Below are positions 3,171-60,796 of a stretch of DNA of 61,356 nt, one piece after another. The stretch comes from a virus. A program made the translations under genes and the position numbers. Each line of letters begins with the position of its first letter. Position 1 is the first letter of the stretch. The stretch is from IMG/VR virus record IMGVR_UViG_3300028829_003908, positions 1 to 61,356 of that record; one strand, 5' to 3'. The notes beneath the pieces are model-generated. The model had not been told where the DNA came from, ran no database searches, and was given only the letters and a program-made list of their open reading frames with translations.

Positions 3171-3221
3171 GGAGTGTCACTTGGGGAACTATGTCGCTTG
3201 GATAAGTTGTCTGTATGCATG

Positions 3222-3311: not shown

Positions 3312-3372
3312 TTTACAATATAGTATACTCCCATTACCCAACACCATATAGTGATGAACGCTAAAATATAAA

Positions 3373-3534: not shown

Positions 3535-3538
3535 GTGT

Positions 3539-11350: not shown

Positions 11351-12199
11351 TCATCGCACAGATTCTATGTAATCTAATATATCTATCTTGGGCTCCCAAC
11401 CTAATAACTCGTGAGCCAAAGTATCTGTACAAAGTGTTTCTCTCATTTCACCAGGTCGTGCATCGATGTAAGTATATCCTGCATCAAATGATTGAGCAAT
11501 TACATTTATTGAATGATTTTCACCTTTACCCAATTCAAATATTTTACCATTTGATTCATCTATTTGTTCTCCACACTTAATTATACCATCCACTATATCA
11601 TCTACATGAGTAAAATCTCTTCTCTGTTCACCATCACCTGTAATAGTTAACTCTACACCATCTTTGAATTGTTTTTCAAATATACCAATGACAGTACAAT
11701 ATTCTCCCTCTGTTAATTGATGTGGGCCATAAACATTATAGAACCTACATATTGATGATTTCACACCATAGATTTTATTCCACATCTTCACCATTTCTTC
11801 ACCTTGAGATTTTGAGAATGTATATGGATTAGCAAACACATCTCCATGTGATGATGATGAACCTGCATATATGACAGAACATTTTTTTCTATCTGCCCAA
11901 CTCATTATATTCATGGTTCCCAATACATTGGTTTCAAATGTTATTTCTGGTTCTTCAAATGATGGTTGGATTCTTGGTAATGCTGCCATGTGATATATAA
12001 TATCTACATCATCCATAAAGAAATCAAAATCAAGACAATCTCTAATATCTACATTGTGATATGTACAACCCTCTTGTTCATTCTCTTCTTTACCATTACT
12101 ATAGTTATCCAAACTAACTACATTGTGTCCATCTTTTAATAATCTCTTAATTAGGTTCGTTCCGATAAAACCTACTCCACCCGTTACTAATACATTCAT
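11351..12199 (-). CDS. NAD-dependent sugar epimerase/dehydratase (extended SDR)
   Basis: A nucleotide-sugar epimerase of the UDP-glucose 4-epimerase type. Seen: the Rossmann motif TGGVGFIG near residue 6, a GSSSS catalytic serine region, YTFSK as the YxxxK catalytic pair, and RFYNVYGP and RRDFTHVDD typical of the family. The start chosen is the ATG at 12199, which overlaps the preceding stop (ATGA) and leaves the Rossmann fold at the N-terminus; a frame starting at 12229 would add ten unrelated residues. It probably supplies an activated sugar to the neighbouring transferases. Confidence 0.9.
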   Translation of the reverse strand: MNVLVTGGVGFIGTNLIKRLLKDGHNVVSLDNYSNGKEENEQEGCTYHNVDIRDCLDFDFFMDDVDIIYHMAALPRIQPSFEEPEITFETNVLGTMNIMSWADRKKCSVIYAGSSSSHGDVFANPYTFSKSQGEEMVKMWNKIYGVKSSICRFYNVYGPHQLTEGEYCTVIGIFEKQFKDGVELTITGDGEQRRDFTHVDDIVDGIIKCGEQIDESNGKIFELGKGENHSINVIAQSFDAGYTYIDARPGEMRETLCTDTLAHELLGWEPKIDILDYIESVR

Positions 12200-13131
12200 T
12201 TGTTTGTCGCCTTCCAATTTGTTTTCCATGCATTCTCTGTGTAATATTCATTAAATCTTTTTCTGATAGTTTCACTACATAAGTTATAAAACTTCTCAGA
12301 TTCTTGTAGTTTTCTTCCTATTCTTTTTGCCTCATCCAAATCACCAACTTCGACTGTGGTTAATGGATGTAATAATTCTTGTGTATCTAATCCTTTATAT
12401 CCAATACAAGGTATTCCATGAAACCCACAATTCATACTAAATGTTCCTGCTGCGTGTGTTCTCATTAAATGAACACCTATATTATACTCTGATAATTTAT
12501 CTATCCACTCTCTCCAATTCATATAATTTAAATAATTTATATCTTCTATTGAATCTTCTTGTTCTTGTTTCCTACCCATTGATGGTGCAGATATAGGATT
12601 ACCTATCTCTCTTGCCACCATATAGGAATCAAATCCACCATACCAATTACAAAAGTTACCACCCATCATTGTACCATTTACATTATTTTTAAAGTAATCA
12701 CCCTCTGTAGTTCTTGGTTTTAGTCCCTCTGGTATCATCAAACTTCTCATCACTCTTACATCCTTACAACCTAACCCTAAGAAATAGTTTACATCAGATT
12801 CATTATGACAATACATTATATCTGCATCTAATAATGTGTTCACATAATGAAACTGCCATTCAACTTTATAATCTTGGAAAAACCAATGTGGTCCCTCTTG
12901 CATTACTGCAACTTTATCACACATCTTTCTTATCTGTGACAACATTACACTTGGATTTTTCTTTGGTATTATTACGATACCCAAATCAAACTTCTTTTTC
13001 AATGGTAATTTATTCAATGGATAAAATGGAGCATCTAATGCTATTGACCACGCAATTTCTGTACGAGCGTTCTCGAATGTTCTTGGTGGTTTACCCTCTA
13101 TTGATGTCTCTGAAAAGAATGCAACTTTCAT
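12196..13131 (-). CDS. Probable GT-B-like glycosyltransferase (311 aa)
   Basis: Strand-helix alternation (VAFFSETSIEG, FDLGIVIIP, ADIMYCHNESDVNYF) and a C-terminal half with NIGVHLMRTHAAGTFSMN and GIPCIGYKG. These resemble the donor-binding half of GT4-like enzymes. Catalytic residues cannot be named with confidence. Four-base overlaps to the deacetylase and the epimerase place it in the glycan operon. Confidence 0.6.
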   Translation of the reverse strand: MKVAFFSETSIEGKPPRTFENARTEIAWSIALDAPFYPLNKLPLKKKFDLGIVIIPKKNPSVMLSQIRKMCDKVAVMQEGPHWFFQDYKVEWQFHYVNTLLDADIMYCHNESDVNYFLGLGCKDVRVMRSLMIPEGLKPRTTEGDYFKNNVNGTMMGGNFCNWYGGFDSYMVAREIGNPISAPSMGRKQEQEDSIEDINYLNYMNWREWIDKLSEYNIGVHLMRTHAAGTFSMNCGFHGIPCIGYKGLDTQELLHPLTTVEVGDLDEAKRIGRKLQESEKFYNLCSETIRKRFNEYYTENAWKTNWKATNK

Positions 13132-13790
13132 TTTATCTCTGATATTGTTAAAAACTCTAAACTATACTCTGATAATAAGTATTCAATTACTCGTTCAAAA
13201 TGCAAGAAATTTTCTTCATTCCAAACATTATCATTATGTGTTCCGTTGATATGTGATTGAAACATAAATGTATCACCATACAAACTTAAATTATCTGGTT
13301 CATTTATACCATCACAACCCTCGAAGAAATGGCATCCCCAATTCAATCCTTTATTATGTTCTTCATGTCCTGCAACCCAATCAAAATAACTACTGATAGC
13401 ATCTGCTGATTGTTGGTTCACTCCCCAACCTGGTGCTCTAAATCCTTTTGGTGTATATCCACAACTCTTCCATAAATCTTGACTCTCTTGTATTCTCTGA
13501 ACTGCCTCAGTATAATTTAATTCAAAGAACTCCATCTCACCATATCCCTCGTTTTTACACGCATGAAAGTGTCCATGATTACTTAACTCTATCCAATCGT
13601 GTTGTGTCCAAAAATCTACGAACTCTTTTGTGATTGGAAACTTGTTATGATAATTACTTGGTACAAATAAATTAAACTTTACTCCAAAATTATGATGTAG
13701 GTTTTCAAGGTATTGTACTTGAACATCACCCTCAACTCCCCAACCTTTTTCTGGATGTACATCATCTATTGCAACTATTACATTAGTCAT
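13128..13790 (-). CDS. Polysaccharide deacetylase-like (CE4/NodB fold)
   Basis: Shows AIDDVHPEKGWG at the N-terminus (metal-binding Asp region), SNHGHFHA near residue 73 (the H-x3-H type motif) and GFRAPGWG near 115, the usual CE4 order. It would remove acetyl groups from N-acetylated sugars in a glycan. It overlaps neighbours by four bases on both sides. The family's C-terminal LxH motif is less clear. Confidence 0.75.
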   Translation of the reverse strand: MTNVIVAIDDVHPEKGWGVEGDVQVQYLENLHHNFGVKFNLFVPSNYHNKFPITKEFVDFWTQHDWIELSNHGHFHACKNEGYGEMEFFELNYTEAVQRIQESQDLWKSCGYTPKGFRAPGWGVNQQSADAISSYFDWVAGHEEHNKGLNWGCHFFEGCDGINEPDNLSLYGDTFMFQSHINGTHNDNVWNEENFLHFERVIEYLLSEYSLEFLTISEIK

Positions 13791-14251
13791 CCTCTTAATC
13801 CTTTCTCAATCAAATCTTCTCTTTTCTTTCTATCCATCCACTTTTCCCATAGATGCCATTTGAACCAACTTGTAACTTTACCCACTACATTCTGTATTGG
13901 TTTAAATACTTTGGTTAATACATTATCAACCTTTACTTGTGGTGTTTCATCATACTCTTTTAAGAAATCAAAAGTACCTGAAAATTCTGGTAGAATTACA
14001 TCACCTTTTTGGTGTTCAAGTATCTTAATCGTATTACCATCAACATCTTTTGTAACATAATAACTATCTAAAAAATGATGCGAGTGGTATCGGAATGCAT
14101 CATCTTTTTGCTTTTGAATCAATGCAGTTTCTTTTTCTAACGACCTTGATTCCCAACCATTATAATAATCCATCATTGTATTAACCACCATTAATGGTAA
14201 TGCCAATACCAATGTTATATTCTTCCACCACTCTATCATTTTTTTATACAT
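13787..14251 (-). CDS. Hypothetical membrane-anchored protein (154 aa)
   Basis: An N-terminal hydrophobic stretch (NITLVLALPLMVVNTMM) follows a short basic start, then a charged soluble region and a C-terminal basic helix (KWMDRKKREDLIEKG). It could tether glycan enzymes to the inner membrane; no family recognised. Confidence 0.55.
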   Translation of the reverse strand: MYKKMIEWWKNITLVLALPLMVVNTMMDYYNGWESRSLEKETALIQKQKDDAFRYHSHHFLDSYYVTKDVDGNTIKILEHQKGDVILPEFSGTFDFLKEYDETPQVKVDNVLTKVFKPIQNVVGKVTSWFKWHLWEKWMDRKKREDLIEKGLRG

Positions 14252-14641
14252 CTACCAGCCTTCTTCGAATGGATACTCTTTTGTTGATGGTTTACTATCT
14301 TTACTATTGACATAAATCCACTTAACATCAGGTAGTATCTCGTTCCTTATCTGTTTTCTTTGGTTTGCGTATGGACATATAGATGCTATAACTACATTTT
14401 TCCCTTGTACCCATAACACTCTTGCTATCCTCGCTAACCTATCGTTCTGTTTTCTTCTACTTTTTTCATCAAAACCCAAATCATCCCAAACACTTTCTCT
14501 GAAATCATCTGCATCTAATACTATCTTATTAGGTACATCAAACTTTAAAGCTATGTTTGTCTTTCCACTTCCGCTGTTTCCATGAAACCACCACACTTGT
14601 CCTGGTCTATCATCAGGTATTACTCTGTGTATTGCTCCCAT
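14252..14641 (-). CDS. APS kinase-like P-loop kinase (CysC-like), short
   Basis: Walker A GNSGSGKTN, then LDADDFR (compare LDGDNVR in CysC) and NDRLARIARVLWVQGK followed by ASICPYANQRKQIRN. This is the APS kinase order; those enzymes phosphorylate adenylylsulfate to PAPS. The protein is only 129 residues and lacks the usual lid segment with KGLYKKAR, so activity is uncertain. The start at 14641 has AGGGAG eight bases upstream; a frame from 14707 would overlap the upstream gene by 95 bases. A sulfotransferase gene at 31 kb makes PAPS supply plausible. Confidence 0.7.
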   Translation of the reverse strand: MGAIHRVIPDDRPGQVWWFHGNSGSGKTNIALKFDVPNKIVLDADDFRESVWDDLGFDEKSRRKQNDRLARIARVLWVQGKNVVIASICPYANQRKQIRNEILPDVKWIYVNSKDSKPSTKEYPFEEGW

Positions 14642-22761: not shown

Positions 22762-24081
22762 TTATACCTTTTTCAATTTTGGTAATTTAATACCATCTGT
22801 TTTTTTATCTTCAACTTTATTCAACTTTGGTAGTTTAAGTTCTACTGATTTTGGTACATCCTTTAGTAAGTTATCAACCTCTGTGATTAACTTATCTTGC
22901 ATCTTCTGTAAACTAAACTTGGTAGAAGTAACTACCTTTAATTGTTTAGCCTTTACCATGTATTTAGTATAGTTCTTATATACATCTTTCATCACTTGTG
23001 ATGCAACATTATAATTGACTGTGAACCACTTATTATCAGGTGATTCAAAGAAAATATCTTTATTGAATGCACCTTGTGGTACTTGTACTAAACTACCTGG
23101 AAGTAGAGTTGCATAGTTCTTATCTAAGAAATCTACCTGTCCACTCCAATCTGGTGCAATTACAGGTTTACCACTTTGACAAGCCTCTAATAATGGTCTA
23201 CCAAATCCCTCACCATGTGTGAATGTAATATGTGCTTTTACTTTAGGATGATTATATAATTCATTCATCTGAGAATCTGTAAAATCACCATGTATAAGAT
23301 AAATATTTGGCAACACACCATTTACACTATCTTTAAGATGTTTTATTTTTGAAAGTATATCTTCTCTATCAAGAATACTAAAATCTGCACCACTTGTTTT
23401 TAGAATTAAGTTTGGTGGATTCTTTTGATTCTTAAATGATTCTAAGAATACTTTAATCAACATACCAATATCTTTTCTATCTTTACCAAGTGTACCACTT
23501 AACCAATGTCCTACAAATAAGAAGTTCCAATCACTATCAATACCATCAAATACTTCTTTTACTTCATCTGAAAAGGTTCTTGTTTCGTTGTAGGTATCTG
23601 TATCAATACCCTCAAATAATACTGAACCTGGTTTATCGAACTTTACAATTCTTTTTGTTTTACCATCTTCAAATTCAGCAGCATCAAAACAATGTTTAGT
23701 GAACTCTGATGTGAATATCGTGGTATCCATTTTGTTAGCACCATCTATCCATGATGGCATTGGTATTGTTGTTTCTATACCTGCAGTGATACCCATGTTC
23801 TTTTTACCAATCGGTTGAAACTCATTCGGTATTACAATGTGAATATGTAAATCAGGTTGTTGTGGTAATTGTGGTGATGTTAATAATCTTTCTTCTATCG
23901 CATCATGTTGTGAATTACCCTTTTCTAATGCAGTCATAGGTGTTCCACCCCATCTACAATTGTTAATCATAACATCATATTTATCTGAGTTAATTAACGC
24001 AGTACAAATATCTCGTGAGTGATTACCATAACCACTTCTTGTTTTGACTGGTGCTGTTACTAATACTAATGGTTTGTTCAT
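22762..24081 (-). CDS. GT4-like glycosyltransferase with C-terminal KLPKL repeats
   Basis: A GT-B enzyme: the N-terminal half has TRSGYGNHSRDI, the C-terminal half has FLFVGHWL, IYLIHGDFTD and FTHGEGFGRPLLEACQSGKPVIAPDWSG, the E-x7-E donor-binding motif. The last 35 residues contain two copies of KLPKL (LKLPKLNKV and IKLPKLKKV). The next gene begins with the same motif. The tail may mediate pairing of the two enzymes. Confidence 0.8.
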   Translation of the reverse strand: MNKPLVLVTAPVKTRSGYGNHSRDICTALINSDKYDVMINNCRWGGTPMTALEKGNSQHDAIEERLLTSPQLPQQPDLHIHIVIPNEFQPIGKKNMGITAGIETTIPMPSWIDGANKMDTTIFTSEFTKHCFDAAEFEDGKTKRIVKFDKPGSVLFEGIDTDTYNETRTFSDEVKEVFDGIDSDWNFLFVGHWLSGTLGKDRKDIGMLIKVFLESFKNQKNPPNLILKTSGADFSILDREDILSKIKHLKDSVNGVLPNIYLIHGDFTDSQMNELYNHPKVKAHITFTHGEGFGRPLLEACQSGKPVIAPDWSGQVDFLDKNYATLLPGSLVQVPQGAFNKDIFFESPDNKWFTVNYNVASQVMKDVYKNYTKYMVKAKQLKVVTSTKFSLQKMQDKLITEVDNLLKDVPKSVELKLPKLNKVEDKKTDGIKLPKLKKV

Positions 24082-24088
24082 TTATCCC

Positions 24089-25531
24089 TCACACTTTATA
24101 AACATTAATCTTTTGTTTTGGAGTCCACTTATCAAATGCAGTTTCCATATGGTCTATGAATAAACCACACATTGCTCTTGCACTCATATTTGCATCATCA
24201 CTTGTTACAAATTCGTGTCCTTTAAATCCACACTCTTTTCTGGCTTCTCTTCCCATTTCATACCACTCTTTTATTCTATCTGCGGCATCTTCCCAATCAC
24301 ATCTATCATCGAAAATGTATGGTGTTGGTACTGAACCCATTAGAGAACGAGTCTTAGGCCATACTGGTTTTACCCACTCACCCCAAGTTAATTCTTCGTT
24401 GTGTTCCCACTCCTTGTGATTATGTAAAGATTTAATATCTTTGTAATCATCTATTGTTAACAACTTATCATTAACTCTGAATCCACATTGGTCTTGTAAT
24501 CCACCTGTAACATTTACTATGATTGGTGTTCCAGCCATTAATGATTCACAAGTACCTAATCCAAATCCCTCATTAGAAGCGATGTTCATTGTAACATCTG
24601 CAATATTATATAGGTAATTCATTTCTTTAGGTTCAAGTTTATTAGCACTGAAATGTACTCTACATTCTGGCATTAAATCCTCAATCAAATGTGGTAAATC
24701 TGTACCATGTTGGTCGATTGGTTGTGTATGCATAACATATGCAACCCTATCTTGTTGTTCTTTTGGTAACTGATTATGGAATGATTGGAATGCCAACATA
24801 CAATCTCCAATCATCTTTCGTTTGATGTTTCTGTTAACATACAACAAAATAAAATCTGTTGGTTTATTACCAACTATTTGCTGTTTAAACTTATTCATCT
24901 CTGCCAATTGAGTCTCATCCTTAATTGGATAAAATTCTTTTTCATTAATACCATGTGGTACATAAGTACAATCCCAATCTGTTCTTGGTTTCTTCTTTGC
25001 AACCGCATTTACCATTGCATGAGTTTGTTTTGATATATTCATAATCAAATCACAACTCTCATAAAAGAACTCATTGTATTGTGGTGCGGGATAATCATCC
25101 CATATATTATAATAGAAGATAGGAATCTCTTGTCTTAACTCGTGTTCCATATGATATAACCAACCCCAAAATCTTGGGTCTGTATAGTGTAGGATTGCAT
25201 CTGGCTTTTCAATCTCCATAATCTGTTTCAGAATATCTTGATTACCATAACCACTTACTGGATAAACTTTTAGATACCCATCCTCTACACCATAATCATT
25301 CCTTACTGCTTCACACATATCGATGGTTTTACCCTCATCAGGATGTTTTACTGCTCCACCAATCTGAACCCAATCATATTTATCAATGGTTCCCATAACA
25401 ATCTCTCTCGACATTACACCGACACCACTTGACATTCTTAGGTCGTCTGATAGTAAAAGAATCTTTTTCTTCTTCTTTACTTCTTTAACTTTTTCTACTG
25501 ATTTTAACTTTGGTAACTTTAACTTTGTCAT
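24089..25531 (-). CDS. GT4-like glycosyltransferase with N-terminal KLPKLK motif
   Basis: A GT-B enzyme: ILLLSDDLRMSSGVGVMS opens the fold and ASNEGFGLGTCESLMAGTPIIVNVTGG is the donor-site E-x7-E motif. It begins LKLPKLKSVEKVKEVKKKKK, a basic tail that repeats the motif ending the neighbouring transferase. It is the first transferase of the run down to 10010. RBS region is weak in AT-rich sequence. Confidence 0.8.
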   Translation of the reverse strand: MTKLKLPKLKSVEKVKEVKKKKKILLLSDDLRMSSGVGVMSREIVMGTIDKYDWVQIGGAVKHPDEGKTIDMCEAVRNDYGVEDGYLKVYPVSGYGNQDILKQIMEIEKPDAILHYTDPRFWGWLYHMEHELRQEIPIFYYNIWDDYPAPQYNEFFYESCDLIMNISKQTHAMVNAVAKKKPRTDWDCTYVPHGINEKEFYPIKDETQLAEMNKFKQQIVGNKPTDFILLYVNRNIKRKMIGDCMLAFQSFHNQLPKEQQDRVAYVMHTQPIDQHGTDLPHLIEDLMPECRVHFSANKLEPKEMNYLYNIADVTMNIASNEGFGLGTCESLMAGTPIIVNVTGGLQDQCGFRVNDKLLTIDDYKDIKSLHNHKEWEHNEELTWGEWVKPVWPKTRSLMGSVPTPYIFDDRCDWEDAADRIKEWYEMGREARKECGFKGHEFVTSDDANMSARAMCGLFIDHMETAFDKWTPKQKINVYKV

Positions 25532-38980: not shown

Positions 38981-40195
38981 TTAATACTTTTTCCATACCC
39001 ATATTGGTTCACAAAATGTTTTATCTTTCGTCTGTTCTGCCAGTTCCTTTGTTTCGTCTTTGTATCTATCTTCTGATGCTGTTCCTGCCCCACCACTATT
39101 AGGTCGTTTAGCCATCTCCATTCCAATACAACCTTGATACTCTGAATCACTTAGTGTACTTAAGAAATCATTCATAGGATTACATATCTCTAACCACTTC
39201 TTACTACCACCACTACTTGCGTAAACATCACTTATGTTCACTAATAAATATCCACCTCTCTTGATAGAAGGCCATATTTTTTTTAGTGTATGTTGTAAAA
39301 AGTTTTTATTCCACTCATCAATAGTTTTATATCTAACCCAACTTTGTGTATCATCATAACTATATCTCTCAACATTAAAATAAGGTGGTGATGTAAAGAC
39401 CGTATCATACGAATTCTTTTTGTATTCAAAATCCTCTGCAGGATGTTCTACAAACATACTCTTCTTAGGAACTTCAAACATAGTTCTGTGTTTATCGTAG
39501 AACTCTGATTGTTCATGATAGATGGGATGATTTTCTTTTCGTGGGTCTATACCCATGTAAAACTCACCTGTTTCACTTGCATAGAATCCAGCCAATCTAT
39601 CTCCCCAACCTGCTGAGAAATCCAATATACTTTTACTTCCTAACTTATCATACAATACCTTGGCAACATTTGGTTTAAATTGAGAACAAATATATTTTCT
39701 CAAACTCAACATAATTCTCAAGTTACCTGCATCTATCTTTGATAACTTAAGTGAGTATGCAGAACCCATCAAACTCGTCATATACTTTTCGGTTTCCCAA
39801 GTTCTCTTTGGACCTGGTGCAATTGTACCATCAACACTCCATCGATTTACTTGTTGAAAGAAATTACTTGCTTTGTTACCAGTATTGATTCGTTTAAAGT
39901 ATTGTTGTTTACCCTCGAATGTTAAATCGTATTTAAAATCAGTACCCTCACGAGCGAACCATTCTCCCTCAACGAGTATTTCGTTGTGTCTCATACCCTT
40001 TAGTTTCTTGAGAGCATCAAATGCATCATCCTCAGAAATACTGGCATAAGGAATGGGATATTCCATCGCAACTTTTGCCAAAGATTCTTTTACATCGTCT
40101 TTATCAAAAGTATTCTTGATGTGTTCCCATTCCTCTTCACCAATAAAAAGATATGGTTCCATATTCTTGAACTTGTTAAAGTACTCTAAGTACAT
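38981..40195 (-). CDS. DNA methyltransferase (TSPPYF type, N4/N6-adenine or cytosine)
   Basis: LDFSAGWGDRLAGF near residue 190 is motif I (SAM binding) and VFTSPPYFNVERYS near 270 is motif IV, the catalytic SPPY motif of amino-methyltransferases. YLLVNISDVY follows. The N-terminal 150 residues may recognise DNA. It lies between the clamp and clamp-loader genes, joined to gp45 by a one-base overlap. It could modify phage DNA as it is copied; the target base and site are unknown. Confidence 0.8.
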   Translation of the reverse strand: MYLEYFNKFKNMEPYLFIGEEEWEHIKNTFDKDDVKESLAKVAMEYPIPYASISEDDAFDALKKLKGMRHNEILVEGEWFAREGTDFKYDLTFEGKQQYFKRINTGNKASNFFQQVNRWSVDGTIAPGPKRTWETEKYMTSLMGSAYSLKLSKIDAGNLRIMLSLRKYICSQFKPNVAKVLYDKLGSKSILDFSAGWGDRLAGFYASETGEFYMGIDPRKENHPIYHEQSEFYDKHRTMFEVPKKSMFVEHPAEDFEYKKNSYDTVFTSPPYFNVERYSYDDTQSWVRYKTIDEWNKNFLQHTLKKIWPSIKRGGYLLVNISDVYASSGGSKKWLEICNPMNDFLSTLSDSEYQGCIGMEMAKRPNSGGAGTASEDRYKDETKELAEQTKDKTFCEPIWVWKKY

Positions 40196-40992: not shown

Positions 40993-43497
40993 TCAAAAAA
41001 ATCTTTCAATACTTTGTTCTTTGTCTACTACATCTTCCCACTTCATAGCTTTATAAAACATACCGAGTTTCTTACTCATCGCTTGTTCAAACATTCTATT
41101 GTGGTCAATGTGATTTTTAATAAAATCTAATATTTGTGGTGGGTCTTCCCAACCTTTATATCCTATGGTGTCAAATCCAAATGTATTCTCTTTTAAATAC
41201 ACCCATTTAATCTTACTACCATTACCAATCTTCTCATATTTTCTACCCTCGAACCAATGTTGTAATAATGAATTGTAATTGATTGCGGATTTCACATGGA
41301 CAGGTGCACCCTTTTTAAATTTACTGAAAGATGAATCCTCATCCGTTACTTCATACTTACCAATACCCTTTACACCGATTGGATTTGCCATTACATCATA
41401 ATGTAACATATGCATATTTCTTTTGAACTTACTAATTCGTTCATCGATTTGTTCTTTAGGAACATTTGCCAAGATATCTTCCAATACATCTGATAACAAT
41501 GATTTCATAGCAATTGCAAAGTTACTTCTGACTGTATCTAAACCCTTAACATGAACCTTATCACACTTTCTACCTGCATCATTTATAATTCTTAATCCAT
41601 ATCGTTTCTTCGTAATGAATAATGCAGTTTTTGCAACCACCTCTTGTTTAATATCAAACACATGGTTATCTATATTTAAGAATTGTTTTGCAAAGTAATT
41701 ATAACTCTCATTTAAGAAATCTTGTACCTCACCACAAACTTCCATAATTCTCTGAGTCATCATGGTTTCACTTAACTTTTGATTTGGAAACCTATTCTCT
41801 ATCAATGGAACCGCAGAGGCAAAAATACTATCAGTATCTATATAAATCACATAGTCTTCTGTATTACCCAACTCTTTGTTATAAAAGTGGTTTGTAATCT
41901 TCTTACTGAACTTAATTAAGGCTTGACCTGTAGATGTGGTTGCCTCTGCGTTATCCAAATCATAAAATCTAAATACTGGTAATCCTAACACACCATACAA
42001 TGAGTTTAACAAAATTTTCTGTAGGTATTGTCTCCTATCAAAATATTGAGATTTCTTTTTATCACCTTGTTCGTGGAATTTATTAACAAGTTTCCTCATC
42101 TCAACTCTTTCTTCGAACCATTTGGTTAGAAGTGCAGGAATCAATCCTTGTTTATCTGTACGATACATAATACCATTAGATGATATACTTAACCCTGTCT
42201 CTTCTAAATAGGATTTTAATTGTTTATTATCGACTGTGTCAATTGTTTTACCATGTCCATTCTTTAAAGTGTAATTCTTTATAGTATCACCCTTTACGAA
42301 CTCAACTGAATCCCAACCCTCTACTTTACCAACCTTTGTTTCTGGTGATATATTTAAAGAACGAATAACACTTGGATACATACTTGTGATATCTAAATCA
42401 TATACCCAATCGTGTCTACCTGCTTGTGGTTTCTGTACATATGCACCTTCAAACTTATCATCCTCACCTCTCTTATAAACATTCTTTGGTTTGTTTGGTG
42501 CAACAATACCCATCTTCTTTAGGTAAACCAAGATAGCACCCTCAAGATATCTTGAACTCATCATAACATCTTCATAAGGTACATGACCAAGATGTGCTAT
42601 ACCTCTTGCAATACCAATAAAATCTAACTTTTTATCTAACTCGATTAGGATTCGTACATCTCGAATGTTATATTTAATAAACTTATCTAAATCTTTTTCA
42701 TACAAATCATTAAGTGTTCCTTGATACTCAATCTTTTTCATACCAACTTCTACTTCACCGATATAATCTAATCTATAACTTGATTGTTGGATTGGCGAGA
42801 ACTTACGATATAATGTGAGATAATCTAAACAACTGATACCAGCAATATTATGTTTCTTTTTGTATTCATTATAATATACATCACGAATAGGTGATAACAT
42901 ATTTGCAACTTCTCTACCTAATACATTTACACTACGATTATATAGATAAGGGATATCAAAGAACTCTGAATTCCAACCACTTAATATATCAGGTGATATC
43001 TCTGCATACTTCTGATAAAACTTTGTTAATAGGTCGTGTTCACTTGTAAATAACTCAACTATCTCATCATCCTTTTCATAATTCTGCATAGTTTTCTGTT
43101 CATCTAAAGTATAACAATAATACTTTTCTATCATCTCATCATAGAACGCAATAGAAGTTATCTTCTCGTTTGCTTTTGTTACATCTGGAAAACCATCTAC
43201 AACTTCTACCTCGATATCAAAGAAGAAAGTTTTACATCCCTCACTTGCATCATCTGAATCTGTATATTGGTCTACTAAAAATCTTGTGGTGATAGGAACA
43301 TCACTCTCGAATAAATTGGGGTCATCATCATCCCACTTGTATACTTTCTTTACTTTATCACCATCTAAGGTGTGGTGGTAACCTGCTGCATTCTTTACAT
43401 ATGCATATTTCTTATAAGGTACAATGAGATGTCCGCGTTTGTCATCCCATACATGAATTTTGTTTCGTCTTTTCTCGTAATATATGTTCTTATACAC
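40993..43497 (-). CDS. 43: DNA polymerase, family B (T4 gp43-like)
   Basis: The replicative polymerase with proofreading exonuclease. Exo I is FFFDIEVEV at 91-99 (D94, E96), Exo II is SGWNSEFFD near 173, Exo III is YNIRDV at 276-281. Polymerase motif A is DLDITSMYPSVI at 367-378, motif B is K494 to NSLYG 498-502, motif C is YIDTDS at 552-557. All catalytic residues are intact. The C-terminal MKWEDVVDKEQSIERFF ends in a clamp-binding-like hydrophobic tail. At 834 residues it is a little shorter than T4 gp43. Confidence 0.95.
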   Translation of the reverse strand: MYKNIYYEKRRNKIHVWDDKRGHLIVPYKKYAYVKNAAGYHHTLDGDKVKKVYKWDDDDPNLFESDVPITTRFLVDQYTDSDDASEGCKTFFFDIEVEVVDGFPDVTKANEKITSIAFYDEMIEKYYCYTLDEQKTMQNYEKDDEIVELFTSEHDLLTKFYQKYAEISPDILSGWNSEFFDIPYLYNRSVNVLGREVANMLSPIRDVYYNEYKKKHNIAGISCLDYLTLYRKFSPIQQSSYRLDYIGEVEVGMKKIEYQGTLNDLYEKDLDKFIKYNIRDVRILIELDKKLDFIGIARGIAHLGHVPYEDVMMSSRYLEGAILVYLKKMGIVAPNKPKNVYKRGEDDKFEGAYVQKPQAGRHDWVYDLDITSMYPSVIRSLNISPETKVGKVEGWDSVEFVKGDTIKNYTLKNGHGKTIDTVDNKQLKSYLEETGLSISSNGIMYRTDKQGLIPALLTKWFEERVEMRKLVNKFHEQGDKKKSQYFDRRQYLQKILLNSLYGVLGLPVFRFYDLDNAEATTSTGQALIKFSKKITNHFYNKELGNTEDYVIYIDTDSIFASAVPLIENRFPNQKLSETMMTQRIMEVCGEVQDFLNESYNYFAKQFLNIDNHVFDIKQEVVAKTALFITKKRYGLRIINDAGRKCDKVHVKGLDTVRSNFAIAMKSLLSDVLEDILANVPKEQIDERISKFKRNMHMLHYDVMANPIGVKGIGKYEVTDEDSSFSKFKKGAPVHVKSAINYNSLLQHWFEGRKYEKIGNGSKIKWVYLKENTFGFDTIGYKGWEDPPQILDFIKNHIDHNRMFEQAMSKKLGMFYKAMKWEDVVDKEQSIERFF

Positions 43498-43500: not shown

Positions 43501-43836
43501 TTATCCTATAGTTTGTTCCAACTCACCCCACATTAAAATACTGCAATAAAGTATTTCATCGTTAGGGTTCCAATCTCTACCACTTGGTGTATCTACATCA
43601 TCGAAGTTATCTTCCCAATATATTTCACCTGTCTCGTGGTTATAAATCTGTTCTATTTGTAGTTCTCCATGATACTCTTTCCATACAACCGCAAATTCTT
43701 CACAATTATCACTTGAATCATAATCATCACAAAATTCTGTCATTAACTGATTGAATGGAATCTCACGAGTGTTAACACTTAAGTCTTCTACACCCATTAT
43801 ATGATTACTATTGTAAATTGTCTCATTTAAGTTCAT
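43501..43836 (-). CDS. Hypothetical acidic protein (111 aa)
   Basis: A strongly acidic small protein starting MNLNETIYNSNHIMG. The ATG at 43836 is chosen because AAAGGA lies upstream and the promoter at 43863-43892 overlaps the longer frame that starts at 43881. It sits three bases before the polymerase gene. The acidity recalls DNA-mimic proteins, but that is only a thought. Confidence 0.6.
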   Translation of the reverse strand: MNLNETIYNSNHIMGVEDLSVNTREIPFNQLMTEFCDDYDSSDNCEEFAVVWKEYHGELQIEQIYNHETGEIYWEDNFDDVDTPSGRDWNPNDEILYCSILMWGELEQTIG

Positions 43837-43862
43837 AATATATCCTTTGTTTTTCATATGTG

Positions 43863-43892
43863 AATATAGTGAAAAAAGCATATATGTGTCAA
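43863..43892 (-). promoter_or_regulatory. Sigma70-like promoter, 18-bp spacer
   Basis: Minus strand TTGACA, 18 bases including GCTTTTTTC, TATATT. It is positioned to drive the acidic protein, the polymerase and the replisome genes below. Confidence 0.8.
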
Positions 43893-43920: not shown

Positions 43921-43942
43921 TGGGGGGAAATAAATCCCCCCA
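43921..43942 (-). terminator. Hairpin after the TonB receptor gene
   Basis: Minus strand TGGGGGG, an eight-base loop and CCCCCCA form a perfect seven-pair stem 11 bases after the receptor stop. An AT-rich stretch follows, with no clean T run, so termination is likely but not certain. Confidence 0.6.
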
Positions 43943-43952: not shown

Positions 43953-46709
43953 TTAGAAATTAACAGTCAATCCAATGTTTGCATATCGTGGTGTTCCTAA
44001 GAATACCTCTGCGTTATGTGGTAAGTGAAGTTTATCACCATACCCATTGTATTGACTATTGTCAACTGCATCTTGTACAAATACATCATCAAGTGCGTTG
44101 AAGATATGACCTGTAAGAGTCAAATCTAAACCAGCAACACTTGGAAGATTGTATGATGCATGTAAATCAAGTTTAGAATAACCTGGGGCTTCCCAAACTT
44201 GTGTTCTGTCGGCATCACCCTCAATCTCACGAGAATCAGGTGACCAATCAGCAAAGTTTCTGTCATATGTTTTGTACAATGCCTGTAATCTCAAACCTTT
44301 AATTGGTTTAAGAGTAACACCTAAAATATAAGATGTTTGTGGCATATCACCAACCCATAATCCATCAAGTGCATAAGAGTAATCTGTAGTCTGAACACCA
44401 ATTACTTGGTTATCATCATTAAACTCTTGTTCTTGGTAAGTACCATCGGCATCACCAACGAACTTCCAACTACCATAAGATGCGATGAAATCAAGTTCAA
44501 CCATATCGTGTGGTTTTACTTTAGTTTCAATCTCAATACCTTTATGGTTTTGGTCAACACCTGTTAAGAAGATAATATCAGTATCACCTGATGAACCTTG
44601 ACCTGTTGAAACAGATTTAGTAAGGTTTCTATCTTTCCAATCGGTGTTATAAGCACTAACTTTAACTCCGAACCTTTCAGTTCCATAGTTCACTCCAAAC
44701 TCACTAGCAATGAATTTTTCATTTGCTGGGTCTGTTGAGACTGTACCATCGTAGTAGATAACATTGTCTAATATTGGTGCTTTTTCAACTAAACCTGCGT
44801 TTAGGAATACTCCAAGATTATCGTTAATGTTATATAATCCACCACCTTTTAACTGATAGGTCGTGATTGCATCTGCTTTAACAAGATTATCAATGGTGTT
44901 CCCATCTTCATCTACATTAACAGCAAAGTGGTCTTCATAAGAGTATGTAATACTTGATAATCCACCCATACCATATAGGTTTAATTTTTCAGTATTATAA
45001 TTACCTTGTAAAAATCCACCAATCCAATCGACTGTGGTTTCATTATGATAGGCAATGATATCACCTAAACCAACAACTTTCCCATCAGGTGCATTATCAT
45101 CAGCGAAATCTACATAGTAGTCTCCACCTAATAAATCACGAACCTCACGAGCGTGTTCGATACCTGCTGTTCTCCAGTCTAATCCAACTTGTAATTCAAG
45201 TTCATCATTAACAATGTAGTTTAATTTTGAAATCAAACCATATGTATCTTGACGATTAATTGAGTTACGAAGAATACCTGTTGAACGAGCATCTGTTTCA
45301 GAATAATCAGCATCGAAGTTTGTTCTGTTTTGTTCTATCTCTGCGTTCCAATCCCACATCCAAGGCGAAGATGCATACCATCTTTCTCCCTCAACTGCAG
45401 GTGTTCTTGAAACACTACCATATGTACCAGTACCACCACCAGAACCACCACTCCAATAAAGAACTGAACTCAAACGAGTCTTGTCATTTATTGTTAAGAA
45501 GTGATTTAGATTCACTAATGGTTTATGAAAGAAGTTTTCTCTCTCATTTATAAAACCTTTATTGAATCTATCGGTTGTTTTTGCTCCATACATATACCAA
45601 TATTGTTGACCAGTGTATGATTCATCTACTGGTGCCCAATTTTGATTGTAGAACCTACCTGCTTCAGTTTCGAATTTGTTACCATCTGCAAATGCATCAG
45701 TATCATATCCATCAACATCACCTGCAAGCTCTTGTGAGTATGTTGCTATGTTTTGTTTGTATAAGTTCTGACCGTGTCGTTGTGGTGCACCTATTGCGTA
45801 CAACTCAACTCTTTGGTCTTCACTTACGGCGTAAGAACCACCGAAATAATAGGCCCATGCATCTGTCCATGTCCCATCGATAATTCCATCACCAGTTTTA
45901 CGAACAATTGTTCCACTTAAAGCTAACTTATCTCCGATGAGACCAGTGTGATAGGTAGCGGTAGTCTTTAGAAAACCCCCATCTCCAGCTTCTTGTTTGA
46001 ACTTTCCACCTTTTTCCATCGCGGTTGGGTCTGTAATAATGTTCATTGTTCCACCAATGGATGGAGTCGCAAGATTAACTGCACTTAGTCCTCTTTGAAC
46101 CTGAATAGATGATGTAGCATCACCAACTCCGTCCCAATTAGACCAGTACACCCAACCATTCTCCATGTCATTCTGTGGTACACCATTTATCATTACTGCA
46201 ACATTTCGTTGATTAAAACCTCGAATGTTGATACGAGCATCACCCGCACCACCACCTTGTTGGGTTGCATATACACTTGGTGTTGTGTTAAGAATCATTG
46301 GAATGTCTTGTGAACCAAGACGAACATCCATTTCAGCTTTACTAACATTAGTGTAAGCAACAGGTGTTGTTTCAGATGCACGAGATGCTAACACCTCTAC
46401 ATCTGATAATCCCAAGAAATCAATTTCTAATATGAAATTAACACTTGAAACTATATCCTCAACAACTACTGATTTCGTTATTGAAGAGTAACCTATGAAA
46501 GAAGCAGTTACATCGTATGTACCTGATAGAACATCAATTTTGAAAGCACCAGAATTATCTGATACTCCACCTACATCTGTTCCTACAACTACAATATTAG
46601 CTCCCTCAAGTGGTTGTGAGTCAACATCAGTAACAACTCCGACAATAGATTGTGCATACAATCCTGCCATCATAAATACTGATGCGATAAGATTACGATA
46701 ATTATTCAT
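43953..46709 (-). CDS. TonB-dependent outer-membrane receptor (918 aa)
   Basis: A complete receptor. The signal peptide ends near AGLYAQ (residues 1-20). A CarboxypepD_reg-like domain follows (about 24-100, with GVVTDVDSQPLEGANIVV and FIGYSS). A TonB-box-like SDVEVLASRA near 104 leads into the plug (INIRGFNQRNVAVMINGVPQND, QVQRGLS) and a long barrel with aromatic-rich strands, ending in a C-terminal Phe (ANIGLTVNF), the barrel-assembly signal. No frameshift is seen. It lies between the polymerase and ribonucleotide reductase genes. The start at 46709 has AAGGAG six bases upstream. Such receptors import siderophores, vitamin B12 or glycans; the ligand is unknown. Confidence 0.92.
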   Translation of the reverse strand: MNNYRNLIASVFMMAGLYAQSIVGVVTDVDSQPLEGANIVVVGTDVGGVSDNSGAFKIDVLSGTYDVTASFIGYSSITKSVVVEDIVSSVNFILEIDFLGLSDVEVLASRASETTPVAYTNVSKAEMDVRLGSQDIPMILNTTPSVYATQQGGGAGDARINIRGFNQRNVAVMINGVPQNDMENGWVYWSNWDGVGDATSSIQVQRGLSAVNLATPSIGGTMNIITDPTAMEKGGKFKQEAGDGGFLKTTATYHTGLIGDKLALSGTIVRKTGDGIIDGTWTDAWAYYFGGSYAVSEDQRVELYAIGAPQRHGQNLYKQNIATYSQELAGDVDGYDTDAFADGNKFETEAGRFYNQNWAPVDESYTGQQYWYMYGAKTTDRFNKGFINERENFFHKPLVNLNHFLTINDKTRLSSVLYWSGGSGGGTGTYGSVSRTPAVEGERWYASSPWMWDWNAEIEQNRTNFDADYSETDARSTGILRNSINRQDTYGLISKLNYIVNDELELQVGLDWRTAGIEHAREVRDLLGGDYYVDFADDNAPDGKVVGLGDIIAYHNETTVDWIGGFLQGNYNTEKLNLYGMGGLSSITYSYEDHFAVNVDEDGNTIDNLVKADAITTYQLKGGGLYNINDNLGVFLNAGLVEKAPILDNVIYYDGTVSTDPANEKFIASEFGVNYGTERFGVKVSAYNTDWKDRNLTKSVSTGQGSSGDTDIIFLTGVDQNHKGIEIETKVKPHDMVELDFIASYGSWKFVGDADGTYQEQEFNDDNQVIGVQTTDYSYALDGLWVGDMPQTSYILGVTLKPIKGLRLQALYKTYDRNFADWSPDSREIEGDADRTQVWEAPGYSKLDLHASYNLPSVAGLDLTLTGHIFNALDDVFVQDAVDNSQYNGYGDKLHLPHNAEVFLGTPRYANIGLTVNF

Positions 46710-46739
46710 AATCATCTCCTTGTTTGTTTACTTGTGAAT

Positions 46740-46763
46740 GACACATTTTTATACTGGTGTGTC
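46740..46763. promoter_or_regulatory. GACACA-N12-TGTGTC inverted repeat before the receptor
   Basis: Six-base arms at 46740-46745 and 46758-46763 around TTTTTATACTGG, 31 bases before the receptor start. It overlaps an ACTGG/CCAGT hairpin further upstream. It could be an operator or leader stem for the receptor. Confidence 0.4.
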
Positions 46764-46790
46764 GCCTGCCAGTAGTATGTGAAACTTTTC

Positions 46791-48809
46791 TTAGTTCGCA
46801 TAATCTTGGTCGTCATTATCACCTGTCGTAGGTGTGATTTCTACATCACAAAAATCACCATCACAAAACTTCTCTACATTTGCTTCTTCAGCTTTGATTA
46901 CTCCGAAGTTTAGTTTACCTAACTTCTTAACATCTTTATTATATGTTTTTTCATCAATCGCTTCATAAGGCATTTGTCGATATGCTCCGTAATCGTGTCT
47001 TGGTAAAAGAGAAATACCCTTTAGGTGATATTGATAATAGTTTAATACTTGTGGTATCATATCAGCTTCTGTTTCTGGATTAAAGGTGACAGTACAACTC
47101 ACTTGGTTATCAGCCCAATGTCTTTGCATAAATGCTGCCAAACTGAATTGTTCCCATATGGATAGTTCTCCGACTGTCCTTATACCCTCTCCTACATCGA
47201 CAGGAACTTCAACTACTAATGTTGAATCCTCTGAACCAAATGCTGGTTCGATTTTATAACCTGCTTTTTTCAATGGTTCAACTAAATCAGAATTAATTGA
47301 TATTCTAATTCTTCTTGTATAGAATCTTGATTCAGGATAATGTAATCCAGGTGTTGAACCTGCTAACAAAGAAACTGTCCCACTTGGTTTTACACTTGTG
47401 GTTTTAATTGATTTTGGAATAGCAAACCAATCTGAATAGATATCATCCCATTCTTGTATAGTATCATATCCCTCTTCTAACCAATTTTTCAACTCATTTA
47501 ATCCACGATTGGTAATGAATTGAGCAATACCACTTACTGAACAACCAATTCGTCTGTTTCTCAACATAACTCTATTGGTATCTGACCAGTGTGTTCTACC
47601 TAATGTAACAGTCTTTGCATACAAATAAGCATACTTTAATGTTCTTTGATAATCCTCTAATGAATCGTGATTTGCTGGAAATGTTTCCACTAAACAACAT
47701 AACTCATAGGATTCAAGTGATTGTTCCAAACAAGGATTACCACCCATAACTCTATGGTCTTTGTTATCTCCACCATTCTTCATACGAGAATACTTTCTCA
47801 TATTTTCTAACCACGCAAAACCTGGTTCTCCATTATCTGCTATTCTCTTTGAGGCTTCTGTATAATCCATACCTAACTCAGCGAATATACTATTATTAGA
47901 TGTCCAACCAAATTGTTCTCTGTGTGGATTTACTTTGTAATTTTTTAAATCTAAATACTCTTCATTGTGTGGGTCTCCGAATACAATCTCTGCAGTTCTT
48001 CTTACATTACCTGCCACAACACATTTACCGATTAAATTCATAATATCTACGATTGTGGTGATTGTGATTGGATTACCTGTGTTACCCTCTAATACTTGTC
48101 TAACACTTTCGTGAACTTCTTCTAATGGGTCTGGGCCTGAACTAACTCCACCAAAACCTTTGATTGGAACTCCTGCAGGTCTGATTAAACTATAATCAAA
48201 ATGAACTGGTGCTTGTCCATGAAAGTAACTCTCTAATAATAATCTTAAAGATTCTACCCAACCCTCACGAGTATCTGGTATTTGAAAAGTTTGTTCATCT
48301 CGTTTGATATCAACACCTTTAACAACTATTTCCCCCGCTCCTTTAGTATCAAAACCTACTCCAACACCTAACATACTTGCATCCATTAGGAAACAAAATG
48401 GTTTGGAATAATCTTCTTTAATTGTTTTTGTTGATACGAACGCACAATTGTTTAGTGCAGCATATAATCCTTTTTCTTCTGTGATTGCTGTTCCCATTGC
48501 CCATAAACCACGACCTGGTGGTAAGAACTTCATGTTGAAGATTCTTTCATACATATCTTGTGCAGATTTCTGTGCTTGCCAAGGATTCCAACCTAACTGA
48601 TGTGATTCAATGTGATTCATTTGCATTGAATATGTTCCCTCTACAACCCTTTGGACAGTTTCCCACCATCTTTCATTCTTTCCATCTTCTTTAATTCTGG
48701 AATAGGTTCTCATGTAAACCAACTCTCCCAATCCATTAAAACCAAATGGTGGTTTTTTTCTTTTGAATTTATTTATAAAATTCTCTGATAATTTAAACTT
48801 ATGTCCCAC
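46791..48809 (-). CDS. nrdJ: Adenosylcobalamin-dependent ribonucleoside-triphosphate reductase (class II)
   Basis: Makes deoxynucleotides using coenzyme B12. Motifs match the monomeric RTPR type: N-terminal NNCAF (C122), the active-site NPCLEQSLES with N358, C360 and E362, and C371 eleven residues later, the same spacing as C408 and C419 of the Lactobacillus enzyme. PSGTVSLLAGSTPGLHYP is near the substrate site. A C-x4-C pair (FCDGDFCD) near the end could relay electrons. NPCLEQ replaces the usual NPCGE. It starts at a GTG with GGAG seven bases upstream. Its B12 dependence is notable next to an outer-membrane receptor gene. Confidence 0.92.
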   Translation of the reverse strand: MGHKFKLSENFINKFKRKKPPFGFNGLGELVYMRTYSRIKEDGKNERWWETVQRVVEGTYSMQMNHIESHQLGWNPWQAQKSAQDMYERIFNMKFLPPGRGLWAMGTAITEEKGLYAALNNCAFVSTKTIKEDYSKPFCFLMDASMLGVGVGFDTKGAGEIVVKGVDIKRDEQTFQIPDTREGWVESLRLLLESYFHGQAPVHFDYSLIRPAGVPIKGFGGVSSGPDPLEEVHESVRQVLEGNTGNPITITTIVDIMNLIGKCVVAGNVRRTAEIVFGDPHNEEYLDLKNYKVNPHREQFGWTSNNSIFAELGMDYTEASKRIADNGEPGFAWLENMRKYSRMKNGGDNKDHRVMGGNPCLEQSLESYELCCLVETFPANHDSLEDYQRTLKYAYLYAKTVTLGRTHWSDTNRVMLRNRRIGCSVSGIAQFITNRGLNELKNWLEEGYDTIQEWDDIYSDWFAIPKSIKTTSVKPSGTVSLLAGSTPGLHYPESRFYTRRIRISINSDLVEPLKKAGYKIEPAFGSEDSTLVVEVPVDVGEGIRTVGELSIWEQFSLAAFMQRHWADNQVSCTVTFNPETEADMIPQVLNYYQYHLKGISLLPRHDYGAYRQMPYEAIDEKTYNKDVKKLGKLNFGVIKAEEANVEKFCDGDFCDVEITPTTGDNDDQDYAN

Positions 48810-53674: not shown

Positions 53675-54119
53675 ATATTATCTAAATTTGGAAATCTTGG
53701 GGATGTGAGATTAACGATTACTCACAACTTGAAGCTCTGATTTTTTCTACCTTATACTTAACATCTTTCAGTTATGAAAGTGATTCTCAAGATGGTTAAT
53801 CTCATCGAATCGAGTACAACCTCTATGCCAATACCTTAACTCTCAGAGTTTAGTTTGTTCAGTCATAAAGTGGGATTTCAGTATTACCCTTACCCACAAT
53901 AAGGTCAACAGAATCGTTTCTGTTTTTTTCTTCAAGTACTTCTGATTATTGATGTCTCAACTACCGAAATGATTTACACCTAAGTAGGTTCACCACGAAC
54001 TAATCATAGATTGCCTTATGAGCTTCCGAAGTATACTCATTTTTCAGCCAATCCCATACAGAGCTAATTACTCTCTGTACTTTCCGATTTCTCAATTTTC
54101 AAAAAACTCTATATCATCA
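53601..54119 (-). ncRNA. Candidate large structured non-coding RNA (about 0.5 kb)
   Basis: No credible gene exists between gp32 and the exported-protein cluster. On the minus strand many stems can form: TACAGAG/CTCTGTA (54057-54079), nested GATTG/CAATC with ATGAG/CTCAT (54009-54053), GTTC/GAAC (53988-54000), TTGA/TCAA (53949-53960), AACAGAA/TTCTGTT with a four-base loop (53907-53924), CCTTA/TAAGG (53888-53904), AACTC/GAGTT (53838-53850), CTTTCA/TGAAAG (53765-53780) and TGTGAG/CTCACA (53704-53726). A 12-base long-range pairing (53702-53715 with 53795-53806) competes with or caps some. A promoter and a terminator bound it. It does not resemble tmRNA or RNase P to my eye; GOLLD/ROOL-type or a new class are open. 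Confidence 0.6.
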
Positions 54120-58642: not shown

Positions 58643-59912
58643 TAAGTTTCTCCGTTATTTCTTTCATGTCTTGATAATTATCCCCCATGAAAACTCTTGT
58701 TGGATATTTACCTTTCCACTCTAAAATATTTTTTACTTCTTTCAAATACTTCAATCCATCTTTTTTGTAATCAAAATCAAATAAGAATGCATCATAATTA
58801 TAGAGAACCATCTTACTCTTGAAATCTTTCATATCATGTAGTAATACATCTAAGGTATGAATATTCTGTTCTGTCTCCATCAACTGAATCATATAGTTAA
58901 ATAACTTATTAGGATTCATATCAGGTAGGTTTTCTCTATGTATTTCTCTACTATAAATATCAGAAACTATCTTTTTATCTCTTTTCCAAGTACTCCACAA
59001 GCGGTGTATAAACTCGTCTACCATACCAAAAAACGGGTTTTGTTTCATTTCGGTAGGTATACCTCCATATAAATACTTGAATGTTAATTGTTTTCCCTCA
59101 TCATAACTTAACCCATATGAATCTGCAAGGTGTTGGTGTACATTACCTTTTGGAAATTTATAACCTATTTTATCACCAATTAATCGTGGATGATACGCAT
59201 CATAATCAAACTCCACCAATACACCATTATCATGTCTACTTATGAATTGTTTTCTACTACCATCTTTTTTGTTTAGTGCTGCAAAGTTCATACCACCAAA
59301 TCTATTACTTGGTCTACCTGTACTTGTAAATGGATTATATTCTGAATAAACTAAACCATCTGTAGTTTGGATTCCATTATCTTCTACCTTAGATAAAACT
59401 TCCAATATTTCTTGGTCATAGTAATCGTGGTCTTCTAAGTAGTTCATTAAATCTAATGACTGTTTTGAAAAATACTCACCATGTTTCACCAAAGGGATTA
59501 CATCATTAACATTTTCTTTCTCGTAGTGTAATCTGTAATTATGGTGGTGAGCATTTGTTAGGTGTTTATCGAAATCATATGGTTGATTAGTCTTCATATA
59601 ATGACACCAATTTAAATCTACCAACCCAAATATATGGTCACAATCAATCATTGAATTATGCATAAATGATTTCATATCACCTACACATACTTTACTATCA
59701 TCTACATCAATGGTTTGTATTGTTCCAAACTTCTCATTGTGATTGACAGGTACGATATACTCTTCTTGCATTGTTCTGATATAAAAACAAGACACACGAT
59801 TCTGTTTAGGATGTTTATGTACATCCGAAAACATTTGTAGATACACGAAGTGTTGAGTCTTCATCCTTTTTTGTAGATGAGACCACTTCTCTTTAGAATT
59901 TACTATAACCAT
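58635..59912 (-). CDS. Small family-A DNA polymerase-like protein (425 aa)
   Basis: PolA-type motifs in order: TSTGRPSNRF at 196-205, motif A FDYDAYHPRLIG at 235-246 (D236), motif B KQLTFKYLYGG at 274-284, NYMIQ near 339-343 and motif C YDAFLF at 373-378 in place of HDELVF, keeping the catalytic Asp. It lacks a recognisable exonuclease and is much smaller than the Klenow fragment. It would be a second polymerase beside gp43, perhaps for repair or a special DNA form. It overlaps RimK's stop as TAATG. Confidence 0.75.
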   Translation of the reverse strand: MVIVNSKEKWSHLQKRMKTQHFVYLQMFSDVHKHPKQNRVSCFYIRTMQEEYIVPVNHNEKFGTIQTIDVDDSKVCVGDMKSFMHNSMIDCDHIFGLVDLNWCHYMKTNQPYDFDKHLTNAHHHNYRLHYEKENVNDVIPLVKHGEYFSKQSLDLMNYLEDHDYYDQEILEVLSKVEDNGIQTTDGLVYSEYNPFTSTGRPSNRFGGMNFAALNKKDGSRKQFISRHDNGVLVEFDYDAYHPRLIGDKIGYKFPKGNVHQHLADSYGLSYDEGKQLTFKYLYGGIPTEMKQNPFFGMVDEFIHRLWSTWKRDKKIVSDIYSREIHRENLPDMNPNKLFNYMIQLMETEQNIHTLDVLLHDMKDFKSKMVLYNYDAFLFDFDYKKDGLKYLKEVKNILEWKGKYPTRVFMGDNYQDMKEITEKLSV

Positions 59913-60796
59913 TAATTTAATTTATTTTTTACATAAGTAACTATCTGTTCGGCAACTCTTATTTCAGTATATTCTTCCATTCCTCTAAAACCAGGTGAAG
60001 AGTTAACCTCACATATTTTATATCCATCGTTATCATATAATAAATCTACACCACCTATATCTAATCCTAATAGTTTTGTAGATTCTAATGCAAGATACTC
60101 CATTTGTTCATCAAGTTCTACTGGTTTTGCTCCACCACCTCGTGTAACATTAGCTCTGAAATCACCATCAGTTGATTCTCTTTTCATTGCTCCAACAACT
60201 TTACCACCTACTACGATAATTCGTAAATCTTTTCCATGTGAGTCTTTCACAAACTCTTGTAAGATGATGTTGAACCTATCATTAAATTGTTCCATCATCT
60301 CTACTAATTGTTCAAAGTTCCTTTTGTTCTCTGCAAGATAAACACCTTTACCATGTGTACCACTCAAGGATTTAACCACGATAGGAAAACCAATATTCCT
60401 TTGTACATAACCTGAATCAATTGGATTCTTAACCAACATTGTTTTTGGATGTGGAATATTATTCTGTGATAATATTTGCATTGTGTAAAGTTTATCCTTT
60501 ACATTATCAATTGCATCACTACCATTAATAAACAATACACCCATTCTTTCTAAATGTCTGAATACTGCTTTCTGATAATATGTGGTTGCACTTCCAACTC
60601 GTGGTATAACAAAATCAGGTATTGAAGTGTGTTCATTATCTACTAATACAGATTTTCTATTATCTTTACTGATAAATATATCTACATTATTAGGATGTAC
60701 ATAAAAACATTCTATACCCTCTTTATCAAAACATTCTACTAATCGTCTTGTTTCATACGATGGTTCATTTTGTGTAGTGAATATCCAACCTTTCAT
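59912..60796 (-). CDS. RimK-like ATP-grasp ligase (294 aa)
   Basis: FPIVVKSLSGTHGKGV, IILQEFVKDSHGKDLRIIVVGGKVVG and KICEVNSSPGF are the ATP-grasp signatures of the RimK/glutathione-synthetase group. RimK adds glutamate to ribosomal protein S6; phage members may modify ribosomes or another protein tail. The start is TAATG-coupled to ThyX. Confidence 0.85.
   Translation of the reverse strand: MKGWIFTTQNEPSYETRRLVECFDKEGIECFYVHPNNVDIFISKDNRKSVLVDNEHTSIPDFVIPRVGSATTYYQKAVFRHLERMGVLFINGSDAIDNVKDKLYTMQILSQNNIPHPKTMLVKNPIDSGYVQRNIGFPIVVKSLSGTHGKGVYLAENKRNFEQLVEMMEQFNDRFNIILQEFVKDSHGKDLRIIVVGGKVVGAMKRESTDGDFRANVTRGGGAKPVELDEQMEYLALESTKLLGLDIGGVDLLYDNDGYKICEVNSSPGFRGMEEYTEIRVAEQIVTYVKNKLN

Follow-up and report, generated by a model that had tools for sequence, protein, structure and literature searches.

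Intact, conserved genes for a TonB-dependent receptor (TBDR) of SAR406 (Marinimicrobia) ancestry, kept under purifying selection and equipped with a dedicated, covarying RNA element, are carried by a group of marine T4-like phages. We describe the gene here in a window of 61,356 nucleotides, positions 1 to 61,356 of IMG/VR virus record IMGVR_UViG_3300028829_003908. It probably encodes a phage-owned importer, derived from a SAR406 receptor gene that was acquired essentially once and has since been kept as standard cargo together with a putatively regulatory pseudoknot. An initial annotation of this DNA had recognized the receptor and considered it unusual for a phage; there is strong evidence that it is genuinely phage cargo, and it is not rare. 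The receptor observation is thus right and more general than first seen; what is chiefly new is the RNA pseudoknot dedicated to the gene. In the open-access literature searched we found no report of the leader RNA, or of T4-like, SAR406-related phages with the receptor as standard cargo.

The receptor frame is an uninterrupted minus-strand ORF (43953..46715), in which the position of the Shine-Dalgarno sequence favors the second ATG (46709) as the start; this was also the original choice and is likely correct (Table 1). The full-length architecture first proposed, from predicted signal peptide through carboxypeptidase-like domain, plug and barrel to a C-terminal Phe, is borne out by the ORF, Pfam and an AlphaFold model. 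CarboxypepD_reg and Plug both score well over their Pfam cut-offs (Plug, 54.9 bits), the LSxxEVLASR segment before the plug is conserved, with E105, A108, S109 and R110 invariant across virus and host in the alignment, and the C-terminal Phe is almost invariant among relatives. Built on an 88-row alignment, the model (pLDDT 77.7, pTM 0.75) is a TBDR barrel of 22 strands enclosing a plug, with low confidence in the signal, in the region of the TonB box and in places within the plug. Structural comparison, for which BtuB-like and SusC-like receptors had originally been suggested, returned the TBDR fold, with FecA and BtuB tied at Z 26.4 and FecA, BtuB, FhuA and PqqU spread over about one Z unit. 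The fold is therefore secure, while structure does not separate substrate classes; a ligand assignment on structural grounds was rejected, these four being too close in Z, and iron cannot be told apart from other ligands as the substrate.

Table 1. Features at the receptor locus (window coordinates).
Feature	Position	Strand	Basis
Gp43-like DNA polymerase (Pol B), downstream neighbor of receptor	40993..43497	-	Profile/sequence matches
126-aa ORF between receptor and gp43, function not assigned	43501..43881	-	
Sigma-70-like promoter TTGACA-18-TATATT for downstream genes	43863..43892	-	Consensus match only
Terminator-like hairpin 3' of receptor	43921..43942	-	Conserved in relatives
TonB-dependent receptor CDS, 918 aa plus stop	43953..46709	-	ORF, Pfam, AlphaFold model, PDB alignment
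22-strand beta-barrel, aa 233-918, last residue Phe	43956..46013	-	AlphaFold model and PDB alignment
Plug domain, aa 113-221	46047..46373	-	Pfam PF07715
TonB-box-like segment LSDVEVLASR, aa 101-110	46380..46409	-	TonB box by analogy
CarboxypepD_reg-like N-terminal extension, aa 21-104	46398..46649	-	Pfam PF13715/PF13620
Predicted signal peptide, aa 1-20, MNNYRNLIASVFMMAGLYAQ	46650..46709	-	n-region, hydrophobic core and ..YAQ read by eye in the sequence
Shine-Dalgarno AAGGAG of receptor gene	46716..46721	-	
H-type RNA pseudoknot, 34 nt	46740..46773	-	Covariation and distribution
Adenosylcobalamin-dependent (class II) ribonucleotide reductase, upstream neighbor of receptor	46791..48809	-	TIGR02505, 355 bits (cut-off 340)

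The receptor had been placed between gp43 and a B12-dependent ribonucleotide reductase (RNR). Both flanks are right, but a 126-aa ORF intervenes before gp43; it occurs only in near-identical contigs and in L036 and is absent from most relatives. Beyond the RNR lie genes for a gp41-like helicase, an exonuclease, UvsX and gp32, and the flanking genes also include a gp45-like clamp and a clamp loader. Across 78 viral loci with a readable upstream RNR, the receptor starts 58-116 nt past that gene. The hairpin noted downstream proved to be a conserved terminator-like element: 52 of the 59 distinct relatives have it, whereas shuffling predicts 0.65, and in the window it is followed by the sigma-70-like promoter match. 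This order indicates that the receptor most likely ends the RNR unit and that gp43 belongs to the next, the usual transcription unit running from RNR through pseudoknot and receptor to terminator. An upstream TTTCACATAC was considered as a phage promoter and rejected as not above chance. The window also contains a manA RNA motif directly upstream of the gp32-like gene (53700-53898, minus strand; Rfam RF01745, 58.8 bits, cut-off 55.2), an N6/N4-methyltransferase-like gene beside the clamp gene (38981-40195) that is present in many, not all, relatives, glycosyltransferase-like genes with a Nol-like carbamoyltransferase (22762-25531 and 1-1071), and an S6-modification (RimK-like) gene (59912-60796).

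The same region recurs at 100% identity in three other IMG/VR assemblies from other samples (L015/L273, L023/L194/L271 and L195/L272). Identical junctions in independent assemblies dispose of an assembly chimera, and the abundance of T4-like genes on a virus record disposes of a bacterial chromosome, the two objections foreseen at the outset. The search of related phages that had been recommended found relatives of the receptor on at least 332 IMG/VR contigs, the best 80 of which are 72-100% identical to it, and in a scan based on gp43 the receptor was present in 65 of 65 loci with readable upstream DNA. Two contigs binned as Flavobacteriales (L082) and Euryarchaeota (L125) have phage synteny and are therefore read as misbinned members of this phage group. 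Some T4-like relatives are without the receptor, including eight loci with an RNR at 87-89% identity (L203, L205, L206, L229, L232, L239, L254 and L259), and no plug domain was found elsewhere in receptor-less phage records of 91 and 51 kb. On four fragments (L076, L078, L473 and L476) the receptor adjoins neither RNR nor gp43, and no RNR was found in these records; adjacency to the RNR is thus usual, not obligatory. In L076, L473 and L476 the gene before the receptor encodes a small membrane protein and is itself preceded, in L076 and L476, by an hsp20-like gene. L076 additionally encodes, by our reading of its sequence, QueE-, QueC- and GTP-cyclohydrolase-like genes of the 7-deazaguanine pathway followed by a DpdA/Tgt-like frame (11396-14526), which suggests modified DNA.

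Genomic relatives of the receptor are nearly all from SAR406/Neomarinimicrobiota, at about 55-69% identity over the full length. In the phylogeny against candidate hosts that the initial annotation had called for, the viral receptors come together with strong support in a single group which, once distant SAR406 paralogs are added, nests among the SAR406 orthologs, and viral monophyly is not rejected by the AU test (p-AU 0.60). Only one host-binned receptor gene, L083, falls inside the viral clade; with an aminotransferase and a tandem receptor as its neighbors, it looks like a genuine host gene. These tandem receptor genes, at 986-4265 of a SAR406 contig (L360), include the host sequence nearest the viral clade. 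A single, old host-to-phage transfer from SAR406 is the likeliest interpretation of these trees, and from the ancestry of the receptor we infer that SAR406 would also be the present host. Close T4-like relatives in SAR406 genomes were considered as proof of the host and rejected, because gp43 relatives in SAR406 bins share only about 31-40% identity; one distant gp43-like polymerase lies on a 335-kb contig binned as SAR406 (L361, G174:C57:118000-135000) that is possibly a large phage. The host orthologs are stand-alone genes, and the attempt to read a ligand from their context was abandoned, the neighbors being only housekeeping genes.

In close viral pairs, the receptor has a dN/dS of about 0.17 and the RNR one of 0.10, while gp43, helicase and UvsX are at 0.07, so that the receptor stands at about twice the value of the replication genes; every full-length viral copy has an intact frame. 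These comparisons indicate that the receptor is under long-term purifying selection, and a host-derived, intact gene so constrained in many phages has the genetic hallmarks of a candidate phage auxiliary metabolic gene. Its distances correlate with those of the backbone genes at 0.50-0.58, against 0.94-0.95 among the backbone genes themselves, and L036 joins a window-like backbone to a receptor from another group; recombination accordingly carries receptor alleles from phage to phage. Within the protein, the plug has the lowest evolutionary rate, F328L is the only site fixed differently between the viral and host sets, and a few short host insertions are missing from the viral copies. Relative to strands, viral extracellular loops evolve more slowly than those of the host (39 of 5000 permutations as low, with sites not independent and loops assigned from the model). 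Because the plug, the TonB-box region and host-conserved residues have been kept, import fits best among the roles first suggested, though its cobalamin and glycan versions are unsupported; the protein is most likely a working importer with the ligand of the host ortholog.

The inverted repeat originally noted upstream of the receptor is real, but belongs to an H-type pseudoknot, of which it makes up one stem. In the window, stem 1 (ACTGG/CCAGT) and stem 2 (GACACA/TGTGTC) cross, with an A-rich loop 3, and the pattern recurs in nearly every relative: stem 1 has five pairs and its loop five bases, a six-base segment pairs with a TGTGTC-like stretch farther along, and a seven-base loop is rich in A. 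Among 58 distinct sequences 96.4% of cells are paired, and two-sided changes occur at 6 of the 11 pairs, three per helix; the covariation is 0.235, compared with 0.108 +/- 0.009 in shuffled alignments, and slid structures do not exceed 0.066. The minimum free energy of the leader computed without pseudoknots is unremarkable (z -0.31), so support for the pseudoknot rests on covariation. Between it and the receptor lie roughly 30 nt, A-rich and largely unstructured, that hold the ribosome-binding site.

Of 82 viral receptor loci, 80 contained one copy of the pseudoknot in a regular-expression scan, and host loci contained none, the sole 'host' match (L081) being the window itself; with a covariance model, 24 host loci and receptor-less phages yielded no credible copy, at 10-12 bits (chance level) against 52-57 for true copies. 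When IMG/VR was scanned for the pattern, each readable pseudoknot among the matches listed was followed by this receptor (at least 105 by alignment), and at seven further sites, where too little DNA is left, the same leader and start codon begin. Moreover, the pseudoknot remains with the receptor where receptor and RNR separate (L257, L489, L076, L078, L473 and L476). An Rfam search with the leader gave no match. PhotoRC-II and DUF805 RNAs were rejected as kin, the similarity being at chance level: PhotoRC-II (RF01717) and preQ1-I riboswitches resemble the leader as short leaders with a hairpin and an A-rich stretch, but the former scores 15 bits, below its gathering cut-off of 39, and the latter gives no match at E up to 10. 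We tentatively propose, at a little under even chances, a new class of phage regulatory RNA, either metabolite riboswitch or protein operator, that serves one gene and through which the virus would sense the state of the cell and tune outer-membrane import. The pseudoknot could instead stabilize the mRNA.

What the receptor might import has been approached through its neighbor. Cobalamin, the first guess, would make it the supplier of the adjoining adenosylcobalamin-dependent RNR, and the class II nature of the phage enzyme, its close spacing upstream in 78 loci and a match to BtuB no worse than that to FecA all accord with this. The cobalamin riboswitches of SAR406 nonetheless point elsewhere. 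Exactly one cobalamin riboswitch is present in 19 of 20 SAR406 genomes, which encode 8-30 plug-domain proteins each, and directly downstream of it lies a different, BtuB-like TBDR in 15 and a DUF5074 gene, which we take to be BtuG-like, in 4. These riboswitch-linked TBDRs show a similarity of at most about 24% to the phage receptor, on the plug side. The host ortholog is located apart from the riboswitch, five such loci contain no cobalamin riboswitch, an Rfam scan found none near the phage gene, and the link to a riboswitch or to other B12 uptake genes that would mark a BtuB is lacking. The RNR, for its part, persists in phages without the receptor, just as the receptor persists away from any RNR on the four fragments; SAR406 genomes have a different, class II-type RNR of their own, none reaching the cut-off of the phage enzyme's family. 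We consequently regard a cobalamin importer as quite unlikely. The glycan reading fared no better, since the receptor reaches 52 bits with the SusC subfamily model (TIGR04056), whose cut-off is 368, and no SusD-like gene was seen adjoining it among ORFs and Pfam matches; the hemoglobin-receptor subfamily was also rejected, with a score under its cut-off.

Another suggestion of the initial annotation was superinfection exclusion, in which the phage copy would dilute or replace a host receptor that other phages use. TBDRs, FhuA among them, are common phage receptors and are blocked by phages with Cor or Llp (PMC11436027; structure 8a60), and both the exchange of receptor alleles between backbones and the missing host insertions would suit such a role. 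Known exclusion factors, however, are small blocking proteins, a decoy would need no conserved plug and TonB-box region, and the viral loops are, if anything, relatively conserved. Conserved plug and slow loops together favor a functioning importer and lend little to a decoy with altered loops, so exclusion seems unlikely. Very unlikely, in our estimation, is low-benefit cargo that hitchhikes with the RNR or with recombination hotspots: the receptor is indeed exchanged and some relatives do without it, but such cargo would not be expected to have stayed under purifying selection for long, to keep its frames intact or to have a covarying leader of its own.

The importer reading can be put as a sequence of events, which we infer as follows. 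A T4-like lineage would have taken up a stand-alone SAR406 receptor gene, essentially once, and retained it as standard cargo that mostly closes the RNR transcription unit. During infection, the receptor would be expressed, exported and folded into the host outer membrane, where host TonB would power it to bring in the scarce ligand of the host ortholog, sustaining supply while host synthesis is shut off. The phage-specific pseudoknot upstream of the A-rich ribosome-binding region, with its presumed binder, would set when or how much receptor is translated. Phage auxiliary genes act mostly inside the cell, and this widespread group seems instead to control uptake at the outer membrane, which suggests that viruses with the receptor manage what the infected cell imports. 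If this is true, these viruses bear on how SAR406, an ocean phylum both abundant and uncultured, takes up nutrients, the receptor becomes a host marker for these T4-like phages, and the candidate RNA switch, dedicated to the receptor and absent from Rfam, is a small RNA whose partner is directly testable in vitro. Knowing which ligand the phage receptor takes would likewise tell what the host ortholog imports.

Several known systems provide context. The stand-alone SAR406 orthologs (for example L084, L085 and L083) resemble the phage receptor in domain order and conserved residues but differ in their housekeeping surroundings, and none of those tested yielded the pseudoknot leader. BtuB/BtuG cobalamin systems have the TBDR fold in common with it, whereas the riboswitch-linked BtuB-like gene of SAR406 belongs to another family. 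A putative SusC-like receptor, read as serving carbohydrate uptake, has been reported from a marine megaphage (PMC9723777); Mar_Mega_1 and LR745206 likewise offer a marine-phage TBDR as a proposed auxiliary metabolic gene, but in one to two genomes as opposed to a conserved family, and the LR745206 match shares about 26% identity with our receptor across a quarter of the protein. A parallel for the leader is the translational operator of T4 gene 32, in which gp32 first attaches to a pseudoknot and then extends over the ribosome-binding site (PMC535899). There, too, a pseudoknot of about 30 nt is followed by a less structured ribosome-binding stretch; the sequences are unrelated and the gene is another, so the likeness is one of layout, and by this analogy the receptor pseudoknot most likely sets the timing or amount of translation.
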